A stretch of DNA of 64,000 nt, from NCBI RefSeq assembly GCF_001886715.1, contig NZ_CP018082.1:2294001-2358000 (forward strand), read 5' to 3'. The first letter of the stretch is position 1. Each line of letters opens with the position of its first letter. This stretch comes from Nocardia mangyaensis (GTDB taxonomy: Bacteria > Actinomycetota > Actinomycetes > Mycobacteriales > Mycobacteriaceae). Positions 6,140 through 41,923 of this stretch are shown one piece after another. Below the pieces are notes generated by a model, which did not search any database, had not been told where the DNA came from, and worked only from the letters and a program-made list of their open reading frames with translations. Position numbers and translations under genes: made by a program.

Positions 6140-7895
<1,756 letters not shown>

Positions 7896-7910
7896 GGAAC
7901 AAGAGGGACA

Positions 7911-8597
7911 GTGAGCGAGCCCGGTAGTCACGACTTCCAGACGGTCTCCAGCCGGGTGCTCTACAGCGGCGCGATCCTGGCCCTGCGCCAGGATCAGGTC
8001 GCGATGCCGGACGGGCGGGTCGCCGAGCGCGAGGTCATCGAGCACCACGGTGCGGTCGCGGTGCTCGCGCTCGACGACGACGGCAACGTCGTGCTGATCC
8101 GCCAGTACCGGCACCCGATCGGTACGCGACTGCTCGAGCTGCCCGCCGGGCTGCTCGACATCGACGGCGAGGACCCGCTCACCGCGGCCAAGCGGGAGCT
8201 GGCCGAGGAGACGGGGCTGGCCGCCGAGCAGTGGTCGGTGCTGGTGGATGTGGCGCTCTCGCCGGGATTCACCGACGAGGCGCTGCGGGTGTTCTTCGCG
8301 ACCGGGCTCAGCGCGACCGACCGGCCCGATCCCGAGCACGAGGAAGCCGATCTGGAACTGGTCAGGATGCCGGTCCAGCAGGCCGTGCGCGCCGCGCTGG
8401 CCGGGCAGATCGTGAACGCGACCGCGGTGGCCGGGGTGCTCGCGTACGCGGCGGCGACGGCCGGACAGGTGCCGATGCGGCCCGCCGACGCGCCGTGGCC
8501 GGGGCAACCCACCGCGTTCCTGCGGCGGAAGTCTGCCGAGGCGCGGTCGACCGACGAAGCGACCGAGCGTGGCGATGTTGCCGCAGGCGAGGGCTGA
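7911..8597 (+). CDS. Nudix hydrolase, ADP-ribose pyrophosphatase type
   Basis: 228 residues. The Nudix box runs GLLDIDGEDPLTAAK then RELAEETGL near residues 80-105, with the preceding LIRQYRHPIGTRLLELPAG and the following LSPGFTDEALRVFFA typical of ADP-ribose/ADP-sugar pyrophosphatases (Rv1700 type). It would hydrolyse ADP-ribose to AMP and ribose 5-phosphate, a nucleotide-sanitising role. GTG 7911 follows the purine-rich AGGAACAAGAGGGACA. It lies between pyrG and xerD with 15- and 12-bp gaps, as in mycobacteria, and is probably in one transcript with them. Confidence 0.9.
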   Translation: MSEPGSHDFQTVSSRVLYSGAILALRQDQVAMPDGRVAEREVIEHHGAVAVLALDDDGNVVLIRQYRHPIGTRLLELPAGLLDIDGEDPLTAAKRELAEETGLAAEQWSVLVDVALSPGFTDEALRVFFATGLSATDRPDPEHEEADLELVRMPVQQAVRAALAGQIVNATAVAGVLAYAAATAGQVPMRPADAPWPGQPTAFLRRKSAEARSTDEATERGDVAAGEG

Positions 8598-35720: not shown

Positions 35721-35754
35721 ATTCTCCATGAAGAATATTCCTGTCAAGGAATAT
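35721..35754. promoter_or_regulatory. Double inverted repeat upstream of ArsR-SRPBCC gene
   Basis: ATTCT-ccatga-AGAAT (35721-35736) merges with ATATTCCT-GTCA-AGGAATAT (35735-35754; 8-bp perfect arms). Starting 11 bp upstream of the regulator's start codon, this is a probable ArsR operator with two dimer sites. Confidence 0.65.
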
Positions 35755-35983
35755 GTTGCACGGCATCCCGATCGGGTACCAGGCATGGGCCATCTGGGGG
35801 GACGAAAGGCCGCTCGACGTGGGAACTTGTGGCGCGGCGGTACTTTCGGTGGGAGTCACAGCGGTGTGGACCATGGAAAGGACGCGGCCTCTTGGAGATC
35901 GGCGCGGCACGCTCAGAGAATCGGCTGGTCGGAGTGCGTGGTGCGCCGCCCTGCGTGGCCGGGCCCGGCCGGACGGCGTTCTA

Positions 35984-38191
35984 GTGTTCGCGCGCTGGGG
36001 AGAGCTCGTCCACCGGTTCCGGTTCGGCGTGCTCGGCGTCGTCGTGGCCGCGCTCCTGGCGCTGGGCGGGTACGGACTCGGTCTGCAGAACGAACTCAGC
36101 TCGGGTGGGATGGACGATCCAGGGTCGGAGTCGGCGCTGGCGGCGCGGCTGGCGGACGCGGCCTTCGGCCGCAATCACGATCTCGATGTCGTCGTCCTCT
36201 ACACCGCGCCGCCCGGAAAGACCGTCGACGACCCGGAATTCGGTCGCCGGATCGTCGAGAATCTCAACAGTCTGCCCCGCGACCATCCCGGGGTGATCGC
36301 CGGGGTCAACGGCGCCTACTGGCCCACCGAGACGGGCCGGGCCAGCGGTCCGCTGTTCGCGACGCCGGATCGCACCCGCGCCGTCGCCGCTGTCGCCCTC
36401 GTCGGCGACAACGACACCGAGATGCTGCGCAGCAACCGCAAGGCGCAGGACGCCTTCGCCATTCCCGGCATCGATGTCCAGGTGGGTGGTCTGCAGCCGA
36501 TCGCGGGCACTCTCAACGACACCCTGGCCGACGATATCCGACGGATGGAGTTGCTGGCCTTTCCGGTGGTCGCGCTCTTGCTGTTCTTCATCTTCGGCGG
36601 TGTGGTGGCCGCGGCGCTGCCGCTGATCGTCGGCGGGCTGACGATGATCGGCGCCAGCGGGATCGTGCGCACGTTCACCTCTGTCACCGAGGTCAATTCC
36701 TTTGTGGCGCCGGTTGTCTCGATGATCGGCGCCGGTCTGGCGATCGACTACGGGCTGTTCATCGTCAGCCGATTCCGCGAGGAACTCGCCGCGGGGCACT
36801 CCACTCAGGTGGCGGTGCGGCGCACCATGATGACGGCGGGACGCACCGTGGTGTTCTCCGCGACGATGATCATCGCCAGCGCGGGCGGCATGCTGCTGTT
36901 CCCGCAGGGCTTCCTGAAATCGATCGCCTACGGTGCCATCGCGACCGTCTCACTGGCCGCGCTCACCGCGATCACCCTGCTGCCGGCGATGCTGGCGGTC
37001 CTCGGGCCGCGGGTCGACATGTGGGGGAGCGCGCGGCTGCGGAAGACCAAGACGGCGCGGGAGGTGGAGGACGGCTTCTGGGGTCGGTCCACCCAGTGGG
37101 TGATGAAGCATCCGGTGAAGGTCGGCGGTGCCCTGTGCATCGTGCTGCTGCTGTTGATCCTGCCCGCGCGCCATCTCGCGTTCGGCGGATTCAGTGAGCG
37201 ATATCTGCCGCCGGACAATGACACTCGCCTCGCTCAGGAACAGATCGACGCCGCCTTCCCCGACCGCAGGTCCGATCCGATCGAACTGCTCTTCGTCGGT
37301 GCCGACAGCGTTGCCGTCGGCACGGCCTGGAAGCAGGCCAATACCGCGCCCGGGTTGGCCGCGCCGTTCGAGTTGCCGTCGCGTTCCAGCGTGGATCCGA
37401 CCGTCTATCGCGCCAAGACCACGTTGCTGGACTCCGATGCCGCCGACGCGACGATCGAGCACCTGCGGTCGCTCGACCCGCCCGACGGGGTGCGCATGCT
37501 CGTCGGCGGCGTGCCCGCCATCCAGAAGGACTCCCTCGACGCCCTGCTGAACCGCATGCCGCTGATGATCGCCCTGGTCCTGCTGGTCACCACGCTGCTG
37601 ATGTTCCTGACCTTCGGCTCGCTGATCCTGCCGATCAAGGCCGCCCTCATGAGCGCGCTCGGCCTCGGCTCGACCCTGGGCATCCTGACCTGGATCTTCA
37701 TCGACGGGCACGGTGCCGGATTACTGAACTTCACGCCGCAACCCATCCAGGCGAACATGCTGGTGATGATCATCGCGATCATCTACGGCCTGTCCACCGA
37801 CTACGAGGTCTTCCTGCTCTCCCGCATGGTCGAAGCCAGAGCGCGGGGCGCGACCACCACCGAGGCGGTGCGCGTCGGCACCGCGCACACCGGCCGCATC
37901 ATCACCGCCGCGGCCCTGATCCTGCTGGTCGTCACCGGCGCCTTCGCCTTCTCCGACCTGGTACTCATGCAATACGTCGCCTACGGCATGATCGCCGCCC
38001 TGATCATCGACGCCACCGTCCTGCGCATGCTCCTGGTCCCCGCCGCCATGAAACTGCTCGGCGACGACTGCTGGTGGGCCCCCGCCTGGATGAAGTCCCT
38101 CCACCGCCGAATCGGCCTCGGCGAACCCGTTCTCACCGACGACCACCCGGACCCACCACCCCGCCTCGAGAAAGTAGGTGCCCTGCGATGA
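35984..38191 (+). CDS. MMPL family transporter
   Basis: About 735 residues, RND-superfamily lipid/drug exporter. TM1 FGVLGVVVAALLALGGYGLG, a periplasmic domain, then five TMs with GLAIDYGLFIVSRFREEL (proton-relay Asp-Tyr), a second periplasmic domain and a second set with IIYGLSTDYEVFLLSRMVEARARG. Relatives export mycolic or other lipids. The frame is open from 35753; GTG 35984 is chosen because VFARWGELVHRFRF is the usual MMPL opening, but it lacks a ribosome site, and ATG 35873 is a possible alternative. The 273 bp before it hold the ArsR operator and no separate gene. Confidence 0.88.
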   Translation: MFARWGELVHRFRFGVLGVVVAALLALGGYGLGLQNELSSGGMDDPGSESALAARLADAAFGRNHDLDVVVLYTAPPGKTVDDPEFGRRIVENLNSLPRDHPGVIAGVNGAYWPTETGRASGPLFATPDRTRAVAAVALVGDNDTEMLRSNRKAQDAFAIPGIDVQVGGLQPIAGTLNDTLADDIRRMELLAFPVVALLLFFIFGGVVAAALPLIVGGLTMIGASGIVRTFTSVTEVNSFVAPVVSMIGAGLAIDYGLFIVSRFREELAAGHSTQVAVRRTMMTAGRTVVFSATMIIASAGGMLLFPQGFLKSIAYGAIATVSLAALTAITLLPAMLAVLGPRVDMWGSARLRKTKTAREVEDGFWGRSTQWVMKHPVKVGGALCIVLLLLILPARHLAFGGFSERYLPPDNDTRLAQEQIDAAFPDRRSDPIELLFVGADSVAVGTAWKQANTAPGLAAPFELPSRSSVDPTVYRAKTTLLDSDAADATIEHLRSLDPPDGVRMLVGGVPAIQKDSLDALLNRMPLMIALVLLVTTLLMFLTFGSLILPIKAALMSALGLGSTLGILTWIFIDGHGAGLLNFTPQPIQANMLVMIIAIIYGLSTDYEVFLLSRMVEARARGATTTEAVRVGTAHTGRIITAAALILLVVTGAFAFSDLVLMQYVAYGMIAALIIDATVLRMLLVPAAMKLLGDDCWWAPAWMKSLHRRIGLGEPVLTDDHPDPPPRLEKVGALR

Positions 38192-38364
38192 GCGATCAGT
38201 TTCGGGTTTCGAGGCGGTCTGTACTGGTATCCGGCCTGTACCGTCGCCTTCTTCCTCTTCGTCACGCCGCATACCGTGGTTGGCGTAGCGACGGCCGAAC
38301 CGCACGGTGCGACCCGATGGCGGCTCACCTGACACGGACGCGAACGATCACGGAGAAACACCGG

Positions 38365-38634
38365 GTGAATTCACCTCTGCACCAGGCGATCATCCTCATC
38401 ACGGGCATTCAGGCGGCGGGGAAGTCGACCATCGCGCAACTACTGGCGGAGCGGTTGCCCCGGTCGGTGCATGTGCGCGGTGACCTGTTCCGGCGCATGG
38501 TGATCAACGGCCGCGACGACATGACCCCGGACCCGTCCGAGGAAGCGGTGCGGCAACTGCGCCACCGGCTGACCCTGGACCGAGGCCGCGGTGGGGTGAT
38601 CGTGGCGTCACGCGGTCAGTGCCCGTCGGTCTGA
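38365..38634 (+). pseudogene. Truncated P-loop kinase remnant
   Basis: 89 residues from GTG 38365. It starts as a small kinase of the chloramphenicol phosphotransferase/AAA_33 kind: ILITGIQAAGKSTIAQLLAERLP (Walker A) then VRGDLFRRMVINGRDDMTPDPSEEAVRQLRHRL. After RHRL the family sequence stops and a short unrelated tail follows; such proteins normally have about 170-190 residues. The lost 3' end coincides with the 3' end of the convergent 687-residue gene (19-bp overlap), so a deletion or insertion joined the two. Probably non-functional. Confidence 0.6.
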
Positions 38635-40679
38635 ACCTGTTCGTCGGCAACCGGTTCCGCGGGCAGGCGGTCGGCGCCCCAGCTGCGACGGATGTAGCCG
38701 AACACACGGTCCAGTTCCGTCCGGTCGACGGCTGCCGATTCGCCGGGCTCCAGGGGGTCGAAGTGGAAGATGTAGAGGCGGGAGGCGAACTGCTCGAACG
38801 GCAGGGATGCTTCGCCGAACCGTTCGCCGTGGCCGGCCGTGCCGACGACAACGCCGTCGCCCCAGTCCTGGCCGCTGTCGTTGTTGGGGTTGTAGAAGTA
38901 GACCCGCATCTTCGATTCGGGGTCGAGGTTGACGCGCAGCACCGTGATCGCGTGCCAGCCGACGAAGCGGGCCGCGCTGTCGGTGATCGCGATTCCGGCC
39001 GGTTGGGGGTGGATCACCGGCTGGTTGCCGTTGTAGAAGGGGTGATAGCTGGCGTAGAAGTGGCGCTGGAAATCCTCGAGGTCGGTGAGCTGACCGGTGG
39101 CCACGTCGACATTGATCCGGAAGCCGCGCCCGGACCACCAGCCGTGGAACTCCGGATTGATCCAGCGGTGTGGATCGCCGTCGCGGCCGACGCACTGGCG
39201 CCCCATCTCCGCGTAGATCCGGTCCAGGTGCGGTACCACCAGCAGCGACACCGGATCCAGATCGTGTTGCAGCGCGGTCGAGACGCCCGCGTCGCTCTCG
39301 CGCGAGGAAATCGGCCGGCCCTCGAAATGCATGACGATCTCGTCGTCACGCGCGGCCCAGACCACCGTTTGCAGCAGGTAGTCCGGGTCGTTGTAGGCCC
39401 ACATCGACAGTGCTCGCGCCGATTGGCAGGTGGGATTGTCGCCCTGCCCGATCCCGAGCGGCAGTCCGAGAACCGACAGCACCCCTGACAACAACCATGC
39501 CCGCGCGTTCGGCGCGGGCCCGAAGACCTGGGTCAGGCGCTGCTGGGAGTGCGGCGAAAGGCGCAGCGCGAGTTGGCGCCACAGCGCGGGAGCGACGGGC
39601 GGCTGATAGAGAATGCCGCGTTCGAGCATCAGGGTGAGTCCGTAGATGCACTGGGCTGTTTCGACGTGCACGGCCTGCTCGATCAGGCTGCGCACCAGTT
39701 CGTGATAGCAGAGCAGGCTGTCGCGACCGGTGCTGGACAGGCCCATCGCCTCACCGAGGAGATACTCGCCTTTTCCGAGCAGAAAGCGCAGCAGGACAGC
39801 GTGATACGGCGAAACCAAGCCGGTGTCGTGCATGGAGCGCGCGAATCCGGTCGCCTCGTACTGCAAGGCGCTGTCGTCCATCGACTCCACGCGCGTGCGG
39901 TAGATCTCGACCCCGGGGTCCTCCCGGCATCCCTCGGTGGTGCCGTAGAGACTGCTGATCAGCCGGTCGGCCCCGAGCCCGCTGGCGCCCAGATCGACGT
40001 CCGGATTCGCACGGGCGACCGCGATCTGGGTGATCATCCGTTTCACCGAATCGACCTGGATGGGCCGCTGGCGCAGGATGCGCCAGATCTCGTCGACCAG
40101 GTTCTCGAGGACCTTCTCGTACCCGATCTCGGTGACGAGGTAGTTCAGCAGCGCGCGCGAAACCTCCGCCATCCGGCCCTGCTGGACGCGTTCGGCCTCG
40201 GTGGGCGCGGTGAACAGCAGGGACAGATTGACCGCGAGCACCTGCGACAGATGATCATTGGCCTGCTCGGCGGAGATCATCGGATGCTCGAGATCGCCCT
40301 TGGCCACCGCGAGCAGGCGCAGATCGCTCACCGCCTCCAGTACCACGGTGTCGGCATTGGCGCTGCGCAGCGAGCCGGTGCTCAGCGACGGGATGAGAAT
40401 GTGCGGTCGCGCCCAGTCCGTTCCGAGGAACAGGCCCGCCGCTTCGAGGCCGGCCGCGCGGGCGCCCACCGCGGCGCAACCGCCCGGGAGCTGCAGTACC
40501 CGCCGCAGCGCCTCCAGCACTCTGGGCAGTTTGACCTGTTTCCCGAAATCACTGGCCGCCGAGAGGGACCGCGCGGCGTGATCCAGCGTGGCGACCCGCC
40601 TGTCGAGAGTCGTCGCCGCACCGCTGTCTGGGCTCAATCGCCGATCCTCTCGTGCACCATCGCTGTCACTGCTGATCAA
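38616..40679 (-). CDS. Large protein with papain-like Gln-Cys-His-Asn module, unknown function
   Basis: 687 residues, no family recognised. The N-terminal 390 residues are mostly helical and soluble. The C-terminal part has GIGQGDNPTCQSARALSMWAY (Gln412, Cys418), VGWHAITVLRV (His576) and VYFYNPNNDSG (Asn597), the order and spacing of a papain-fold peptidase or acyltransferase: oxyanion Gln, nucleophile Cys at a helix start, His and Asn on strands. No signal peptide or TM segment, so cytosolic. TTG 40679 overlaps the ATP-grasp stop (TTGA), so the two are coupled. It could hydrolyse or transfer the amide made by the ligase. Catalytic prediction is inference. Confidence 0.7.
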   Translation of the reverse strand: MISSDSDGAREDRRLSPDSGAATTLDRRVATLDHAARSLSAASDFGKQVKLPRVLEALRRVLQLPGGCAAVGARAAGLEAAGLFLGTDWARPHILIPSLSTGSLRSANADTVVLEAVSDLRLLAVAKGDLEHPMISAEQANDHLSQVLAVNLSLLFTAPTEAERVQQGRMAEVSRALLNYLVTEIGYEKVLENLVDEIWRILRQRPIQVDSVKRMITQIAVARANPDVDLGASGLGADRLISSLYGTTEGCREDPGVEIYRTRVESMDDSALQYEATGFARSMHDTGLVSPYHAVLLRFLLGKGEYLLGEAMGLSSTGRDSLLCYHELVRSLIEQAVHVETAQCIYGLTLMLERGILYQPPVAPALWRQLALRLSPHSQQRLTQVFGPAPNARAWLLSGVLSVLGLPLGIGQGDNPTCQSARALSMWAYNDPDYLLQTVVWAARDDEIVMHFEGRPISSRESDAGVSTALQHDLDPVSLLVVPHLDRIYAEMGRQCVGRDGDPHRWINPEFHGWWSGRGFRINVDVATGQLTDLEDFQRHFYASYHPFYNGNQPVIHPQPAGIAITDSAARFVGWHAITVLRVNLDPESKMRVYFYNPNNDSGQDWGDGVVVGTAGHGERFGEASLPFEQFASRLYIFHFDPLEPGESAAVDRTELDRVFGYIRRSWGADRLPAEPVADEQVQTDGH

Positions 40680-41923
40680 ATGTAGAAGTCGAGCTCTTCT
40701 TGCCGCTTCAGCAGATCCCGCAGAGTGTAGGGGTCCTCGCCGAAGAAGTAGAGCAGACCCCAGTGGTTGCCGAACGCGGTGCGTTTGGTGACCTTTTCGG
40801 CCATCGGCGCGGTCAGTTCGTGTGAGTCGAAGTAGTCGTGATCTTCGGTCTCCGGCGGCACCGACAGTTGACTGACCACGCGCCGGCGCGGATACACCCC
40901 GAAGCAGCCCGCGTGGCCGGTGGCGTCCACCACTTCCTTGGGGAAGAACGCGTCGATCTCCGCGTCGGTCGTCTTCGGATCGAAGGCCAGGACCAGGGCG
41001 TGGTACGCATTGAACCCATAGGTCCGTTCGAGCAGCTCGAACACCTTGAACCCCGGCGGCCGGTAGGCGACCTCACCGAAGTACATCTCACCGTCGCTGG
41101 TGACGAAGTACTCGGGGTGGATGAAGCCGAATTCGATGTCGAAGGTCTTGATCAGTTTCTCGACCTGGCGGGTGATCTCGGGCCGGTACTTCTCCAATTC
41201 CGGTGTCGCGGGCACGAAGACCGAGTAGCCCAGCGTCACGTACTCCGAGATGTTCAGGAAGCAGATGCGGCCGTTGTGCACCCATGCCTCGACGGCGAAC
41301 TCCCACCCGTCCAGGTGCGATTCCATCAGCACCGGGAATTCCTCGTCGGGGATCGTGTCGATCTCGTCGGGGGTTCGGATGACCCGGTGGCCGAGGCAGC
41401 CTGCCTTGTCGAACGCCTTGACGTGGATCGGATCGTTCGGATCACCGTCGAGTTTCAACAGGGTCTGGTTGACCCGCTTCAGAAAGCGGATCACGTCGTC
41501 TCGTTCGTGGGCTTCTTCGAAGATGCCCACCCGGATGCCGCCGAGTTGCGCACGTCGCTTCATCAGCGACTTGTCGCGCAGCAGCATGGATTGCCCGAGC
41601 AGGCGTGGATTGTCGAGCAGGACGGAGTTGATCGCGCCCGCCCATTCCACCGTCTCCTCGAAGATCGGTATCGCGACGTCGACGCCCTTCTCCTTCAACG
41701 TCTCCGCGATCTCCATCGAACGGTCGTTGAGTCGCTCGAAATTCCATGGAATGTAGGGAATGTCGTGTGCTGTGCAATAGTCGCTCGCCCATTCCGGGGC
41801 GACCACTATGTACCGCCGATCGAAACGGTCCACAGCTTCGACGGCATTCAAACTCCACCCGAGTAGGGCAACATATCCTTTGTCGGGGTTTCGACTTTTC
41901 GATTCGTCGGCTGAAATCGGCAA
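40676..41923 (-). CDS. ATP-grasp ligase of unknown substrate
   Basis: 415 residues. Pre-ATP domain YVALLGWSLNAVEAVDRFDR; ATP-grasp core with PIHVKAFDKAGCLGHRV (Lys169), VLMESHLDGWEFAVEAWV, metal-binding FGFIHPEYFV (Glu271) and FGEVAYRPPGF (Glu284, Arg288). The Asn usual two residues after the second Glu is Ala286. Such enzymes join a carboxylate to an amine through an acyl phosphate. TTG 41923 follows GAAGGG; no good ATG exists. It is the first gene of a two-gene operon with the papain-like protein, preceded by an inverted repeat. Substrate unknown; peptide or amino acid amide formation is likely. Confidence 0.75.
   Translation of the reverse strand: MPISADESKSRNPDKGYVALLGWSLNAVEAVDRFDRRYIVVAPEWASDYCTAHDIPYIPWNFERLNDRSMEIAETLKEKGVDVAIPIFEETVEWAGAINSVLLDNPRLLGQSMLLRDKSLMKRRAQLGGIRVGIFEEAHERDDVIRFLKRVNQTLLKLDGDPNDPIHVKAFDKAGCLGHRVIRTPDEIDTIPDEEFPVLMESHLDGWEFAVEAWVHNGRICFLNISEYVTLGYSVFVPATPELEKYRPEITRQVEKLIKTFDIEFGFIHPEYFVTSDGEMYFGEVAYRPPGFKVFELLERTYGFNAYHALVLAFDPKTTDAEIDAFFPKEVVDATGHAGCFGVYPRRRVVSQLSVPPETEDHDYFDSHELTAPMAEKVTKRTAFGNHWGLLYFFGEDPYTLRDLLKRQEELDFYI

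Follow-up and report, generated by a model that had tools for sequence, protein, structure and literature searches.

Glutathionylspermidine synthetase/amidase (Gsp) makes and breaks one and the same amide with an ATP-grasp ligase and a papain-fold cysteine amidase. Amidoligase/peptidase systems are said to have been surveyed by Iyer et al. in 2009, with peptide ligases linked in gene neighbourhoods to peptidases of unrelated folds. For RimK/RimB and RloC/RloA, a section of PMC12239564 describes operons that combine an ATP-grasp ligase with a peptidase, the two enzymes acting on the same modification in RimK/RimB and belonging to the same pathway in Rlo, and a passage of PMC10318531 lists Gsp synthetase among CHAP proteins. 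Here we describe a gene pair that may form a further system of this kind, located in a stretch of 64,000 nucleotides (nt) of the Nocardia mangyaensis genome (contig NZ_CP018082.1, positions 2,294,001 to 2,358,000; hereafter the window). This genome comprises 7.3 Mb in one contig. On the minus strand, the list of open reading frames (ORFs) gives an ATP-grasp gene of 415 amino acids (aa), followed by a gene of up to 687 aa whose product and relatives are called 687-type proteins below. A sequence-only reading of this DNA had placed both ORFs correctly, in position and in strand (Table 1). There is, in our view, about an even chance that both products belong to a single amide module of two enzymes in the cytosol. 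This proposal starts from the two genes themselves, the ATP-grasp domain, the predicted fold of the second protein with its conserved candidate catalytic residues, and the tight co-occurrence and adjacency of the pair.

The 687-aa protein had been considered to fit no family, and this holds in the libraries searched, as no match reached its cut-off in Pfam, NCBIfam, PADLOC or PHROGs. Pfam gave no family at E<=1, Peptidase_C2 and C1 being absent, NCBIfam gave just two ZapD matches (E 0.16-0.18) far under their cut-offs, and PHROGs gave no match at E<=0.01. Peptidase_C2 was also absent from the Pfam matches of 11 relatives and of 10 more. The C-terminal domain is predicted by AlphaFold to adopt a papain-type, calpain-like fold, as judged against a listed set of fold families. 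In papain, the corresponding residues are Gln19, Cys25, His159 and Asn175, and the 687-type protein has them in the same order, Gln, Cys, His, Asn, with the same distance of six between Gln and Cys. Helix 418-430 of the model starts at Cys418, and a separate model of the domain, in which Cys418 is residue 47, puts it at the same position. Papain-like peptidases carry their nucleophilic Cys at the N-terminus of a core helix, according to a passage of PMC10318531, and Cys418 is predicted to stand there. The conserved His576 is likewise predicted in the following strand 572-585 and the conserved Asn597 just after strand 591-596, as expected for the His and the Asn/Asp/Gln/Glu of clan CA, and the overall fold of the model matches that clan. 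The papain fold anticipated by the sequence-only reading is thus also that of the predicted structure, which carries Gln412, Cys418, His576 and Asn597 in this order.

One search scored 2550 database matches for the 687-type family. Conservation was assessed on a set of 282 alignment rows, i.e. the window protein, 240 database proteins and the 41 rows of alignment A3, in which six database proteins occur twice, further loci may repeat, and relatives only 42-54% identical to the window protein are included. Cys418 and His576 are kept in 282/282 rows, as are Gly413, Pro416, His484 and His546, and Gln412 and Asn597 are each kept in 281 (with one Pro and one Asp, respectively). The four residues singled out from the sequence are therefore as proposed, in papain order and near-totally conserved. 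Homologs lacking Cys418, named beforehand as the observation that would speak against the idea, number none in the 282 rows. Moreover, Cys418 is the sole invariant one of the six Cys of the protein in an alignment of 42 rows, which makes its pattern more than chance. In the same 42 rows, invariant positions amount to 82 of 301 in the C-terminal domain versus 51 of 352 in the part before it (residues 20-371). This pattern argues strongly for a cysteine enzyme in which catalysis is under selection, and conservation does not favour hydrolysis over transfer. The cysteine enzyme could be a builder, with transpeptidase or acyltransferase activity that would make the ligase product longer or cyclic, as phytochelatin synthase does with glutathione, a reading that we regard as rather improbable.

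For the first gene, the proposed ATP-grasp core is well founded in the family, PF13535 matching 26/26 aligned ligase homologs at E<=0.01, even though the window protein itself scores 25.3 bits (E 1.3e-5) against a curated cut-off of 27 bits. PF13535 is also listed for many ligase homologs in a precomputed database table. Names given by NCBI to these homologs, such as 'carboxylate--amine ligase', are annotation and not a test. A profile search of the PDB retrieved 4dim, deposited as phosphoribosylglycinamide synthetase (E 0.00055), BL00235 (3vot, E 0.0017) and the L-amino acid ligase 4wd3 (E 0.0068). Glu271, Glu284 and Arg288, which we take to be core residues of the metal/ATP site, are invariant in 26 ligase rows and align with Glu, Glu and Arg of BL00235. 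The mean column identity of the ligase is 73% across two phyla. Its nearest solved kin lean to amino acid substrates, and the calpain likeness and long helical region of the 687-type protein lean to protein or peptide substrates. The pair could also tag and untag a protein in the manner of RimK/RimB: the ligase would modify a host protein with an amino acid or small acid, the calpain-like enzyme would take this group off, and the helical N-terminus would be a protein-binding arm. We hold this to be unlikely; by profile, the closest ligases of known structure work on small molecules (L-amino acid ligases and a protein named phosphoribosylglycinamide synthetase), and the pair is not known to have a protein target.

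The pair is conserved across genera and phyla, as a functional unit had been expected to be. Of the genomes with a 687-type gene, 53 distinct ones were examined for the ligase, and all 53 carry it. In Nocardia, 38 of 118 genomes carry the 687-type gene and the identical 38 carry the ligase, adjacent and co-directional by coordinates in 38/38. Among gammaproteobacteria, the class of Marinobacter, each of the two genes occurs in five of 185 genomes, and these are the same five, with adjacency in 5/5; like that of Nocardia, this sample was drawn without regard to the pair. Seven of 299 Pseudomonadota genomes carry the 687-type gene, with an adjacent ligase in 7/7, and both genes are carried by 5/5 genomes of another check, four of them additional and the fifth being G060. 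A ligase match also lies beside the 687-type gene in all of 93 loci that were gathered as the best 687-type matches and are not a random sample; the ligase is split over two ORFs in L026 and cut at the contig end in L053 and L079. Orientation varies, being co-directional as in Nocardia, divergent in L109, L112 and L116, and convergent in L138. Over 77 loci, the identity matrices of the two proteins correlate with r 0.72, versus <=0.10 in 1000 label shuffles, which points to linked rates of change, although relatedness alone raises this value as well. Copy number is not always one to one: in Marinobacter G060, two ligases stand against five 687-type genes, and solo 687-type copies are found in G846 (one) and, as a second copy, in Nocardia G659. 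The latter (L142 8595-13881; 74% identical) lies beside a 1036-aa protein with DUF7824/DUF6493 matches.

It could be argued that the two genes share transfers and neighbourhoods rather than a pathway, their co-occurrence reflecting ancestry or joint mobility. The 687-type tree largely follows host phyla, and the genomes thus do not count as independent; in addition, 18 Halomonadaceae-type loci lie at one site beside the signal recognition particle (SRP) RNA gene, and the solo copies fit this view. However, adjacency survives inversion of a partner (L116 and L109 divergent, L138 convergent) as well as 44-58% divergence, flanking genes differ widely, and a ligase-only genome was not seen in the Nocardia (118) and gammaproteobacterial (185) samples. 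We find a mere sharing of neighbourhoods very unlikely.

The spacing of the two window genes differs from what had been read from the sequence. The TTGA at 40676-40679 is common to both ORFs only if the 687-aa ORF is counted from its first possible start, a TTG. The closest database protein, P0001 (Nocardia mangyaensis, 673 aa; 99% identity, 98% query coverage), has its first residue at position 15 of the 687-aa ORF, i.e. at TTG 40637-40635, and a Shine-Dalgarno-like GAGAGG lies at 40651-40646, 8 nt upstream of this TTG. In 76/77 related loci measured, the first possible 687-type start is 3-174 nt past the ligase stop; the exception (-1117) is a 687-type frame that stays open far upstream. The length of P0001, the position of GAGAGG and the gap in these loci all favour the start at 40637. 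The 4-nt overlap is consequently doubtful as biology, and the genes are probably separated by a short gap of 38 nt between the ligase stop and TTG 40637.

In the two-enzyme module that we propose, the ATP-grasp protein would activate a carboxylate as acyl phosphate with ATP and join it to an amine, giving a peptide or other amide bond. The 687-type protein, papain-fold and calpain-like, would act on the same class of amide through a Cys418 thioester, either by hydrolysis, for level control or product breakdown, or by acyl transfer to another amine. The common substrate, the ligase chemistry and the direction of the Cys reaction are what we infer here. No stretch of either protein is hydrophobic enough for a membrane helix, and both are therefore placed in the cytosol. 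More tentatively, and with doubt outweighing confidence, this may be a self-contained, unnamed cross-phylum system in which the ligase attaches an amino acid or another small acid to a protein or metabolite, while a new family of calpain-fold bacterial proteases removes or moves the attached group. If true, the 687-type family would be a bacterial cousin of those calpain-type proteases that serve in deconjugation; a single ligase would work with several deconjugases, and the several 687-type proteases of some genomes would have different specificities. Here is a large family that falls below every cut-off in four libraries, bears the marks of a working cysteine protease and accompanies one specific ligase. 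Ligase/hydrolase pairs control protein tags, redox peptides and osmolytes, and knowing what the pair acts on would delineate a new pathway in Nocardia, Mycobacteriaceae, Streptomyces, Halomonas and Marinobacter. With only two genes, the system lends itself to tests in heterologous hosts.

Table 1. Coordinates of the gene pair, its domains and candidate catalytic residues in the window, and of RNA and channel genes near the pair at related loci.
Feature	Coordinates	Strand	Evidence
ATP-grasp carboxylate-amine ligase-like gene, 415 aa	40676..41923	-	ORF; PF13535 E 1.3e-5; PDB profile matches 3vot, 4wd3, 4dim
ATP-grasp_4 (PF13535) match, ligase residues 198-286	41066..41332	-	Profile; Glu271, Glu284, Arg288 invariant, 26 rows
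687-aa protein gene, counted from first TTG	38616..40679	-	ORF; start TTG 40637 (673 aa) more likely
All-helical N-terminal region, residues 15-371 of 687-aa protein	39567..40637	-	AlphaFold secondary structure
Papain/calpain-like C-terminal domain (predicted), residues 372-672	38664..39566	-	
Gln412, candidate oxyanion-hole residue, six before Cys418	39444..39446	-	281/282 rows
Cys418, candidate nucleophile, first residue of helix 418-430	39426..39428	-	282/282 rows; AlphaFold
His576, candidate base, in strand 572-585	38952..38954	-	282/282 rows; AlphaFold
Asn597, candidate third triad residue, after strand 591-596	38889..38891	-	281/282 rows, Asp once
SRP RNA gene directly upstream of pair	L058 4406-4502; L092 4380-4476	-	Rfam RF00169
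MscS-type mechanosensitive channel genes beside pair, halophilic or marine bacteria	L060 3810-4649; L065 8099-8932		

The genes around the pair were compared across loci. No third gene is common across phyla among the neighbours of 80 loci, and no cluster of short frames spans phyla in 52 loci (1.5 kb on each side, frames of at least 20 aa; BLAST may miss very short peptides). A third gene was thus rejected, and a graspetide or other ribosomally synthesized and post-translationally modified peptide (RiPP) precursor appears less likely, nothing conserved across phyla lying beside the pair in these two sets of loci. That no precursor or transporter adjoins the pair, first remarked for the window, holds generally in the two sets, with single exceptions such as the Streptomyces locus L068, which has ATP-binding cassette (ABC) transporter genes upstream. 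The largest short-frame signal, from the 18 Halomonadaceae-type loci, is conserved in all three frames and was dismissed as a peptide gene, as it coincides with the SRP RNA gene (RF00169 in 2/2 loci scanned). The side of the SRP RNA gene is an insertion site common to these loci. At the window locus, Rfam gave no element at the gathering threshold. Mechanosensitive-channel genes near the pair come from 12 loci of one BLAST cluster, with Pfam run on two; an osmotic role in halophiles was judged weak on this basis and set aside, about 9 of the 12 loci being one Halomonas neighbourhood. The actinobacterial genes upstream of the pair are unrelated to each other.

Solo and additional 687-type copies have neighbours of their own. 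The solo copy of L110 is beside a desaturase, and that of L114 (5823-9867, G440) starts 3 nt after PotH/PotI-like putrescine permease genes, the PotFGHI-like putrescine transporter scoring under the NCBIfam cut-offs. In L111 (7413-12868) and L135 (8025-13841), 687-type copies are clustered with GCS2-like and AstE/AspA-like genes, possibly as a larger amide-metabolism cluster. Just before the 687-type copy of L136, an M17 leucyl aminopeptidase extends over two overlapping ORFs of 369 and 213 aa (6494-8063), a split due to a frameshift or sequencing error. Each seen once or twice, the neighbours of solo copies suggest a fit with amide/peptide metabolism but no single pathway.

The pair behaves as a patchy accessory system, the 687-type gene being present in 2/246 sampled genomes of Actinomycetota at large, both Nocardia, and in 0/24 same-order genomes outside this genus. 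In the 687-type tree, a branch separates the labelled Pseudomonadota rows from the Actinomycetota rows, with an Oceanimonas sequence at the base of the actinobacterial side. Transfers between phyla may have occurred, in a number that we do not claim. Several routes and roles were considered and rejected. No copy of the 687-type gene was found in the phages or viral contigs searched, which disfavours a phage origin, and spread by plasmids has one record, a 1.8-Mb Halomonas replicon. A defence role was dropped since the PADLOC models gave no family at E<=1 for either the ligase or the 687-aa protein; a link to Zorya, raised by the UniRef name of P0249, which mentions a ZorC EH domain, has no Pfam match at E<=1. 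Recent insertion in Nocardia as judged by odd composition was also rejected, the GC content at third codon positions (GC3) being like that of the neighbours. Total GC of the window ligase is lower, 0.603 versus 0.687 for the window, with a deficit at all codon positions of this gene for a highly conserved protein. On the plus strand, a P-loop (AAA_33/zeta-like) kinase stump (window 38359-38631) lies directly beyond the stop of the 687-type gene. Its similarity to relatives, whose frames are longer and in most cases reach about 190-220 aa or more, ends at 38574-38592, i.e. 24-42 nt from the 3' end of the 687-type gene. This resembles a junction left by the entry of the pair or by a rearrangement, and because the stump adjoins the end of the 687-type gene, the arrival of the pair may be recent in the lineage of the window genome. 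Further along, an MmpL-family gene (window 35753-38191, plus strand) has an 894-bit match to the MmpL3 model, whose cut-off is 1400 bits.

The principle of a ligase plus a hydrolase is already known, whereas this pairing and this protease family are absent from the libraries searched. The pair was not described in the open-access literature searched, a scope outside which most subscription papers and Iyer et al. 2009 fall. L-amino acid alpha-ligases (BacD/BL00235 type, ATP-grasp_4) are among the best solved profile relatives of the ligase, but the profile match spans about 115 of its 415 residues, and the nearest NCBIfam model, PRK07206, scores 25 versus a cut-off of 302. The calpain protease core and staphopain, both of clan CA, share with the 687-type protein the predicted fold and the order and spacing of Gln, Cys, His and Asn. 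However, they are only 12-15% identical to it, with no Peptidase_C2 or C1 match at E<=1, and the 687-type protein differs from them in being bacterial, placed in the cytosol and endowed with a 370-residue helical N-terminus. The peptidase of RimK/RimB and RloC/RloA is retropepsin-like and aspartic, in contrast to the predicted papain-like fold of the partner here, and the window ligase has no match to the RimK models in Pfam or NCBIfam. Gsp is alike in pairing an ATP-grasp ligase with a papain-fold cysteine enzyme; its synthetase and small CHAP amidase are fused into a single protein, whereas in the window and related loci the pair is two genes, and the 687-type protein has a calpain-like domain and a long helical region, with no Pfam CHAP match at E<=1. 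By analogy, the simplest reading would be that the amide is made by the ligase and opened or moved by the 687-type protein, as in Gsp or RimK/RimB.

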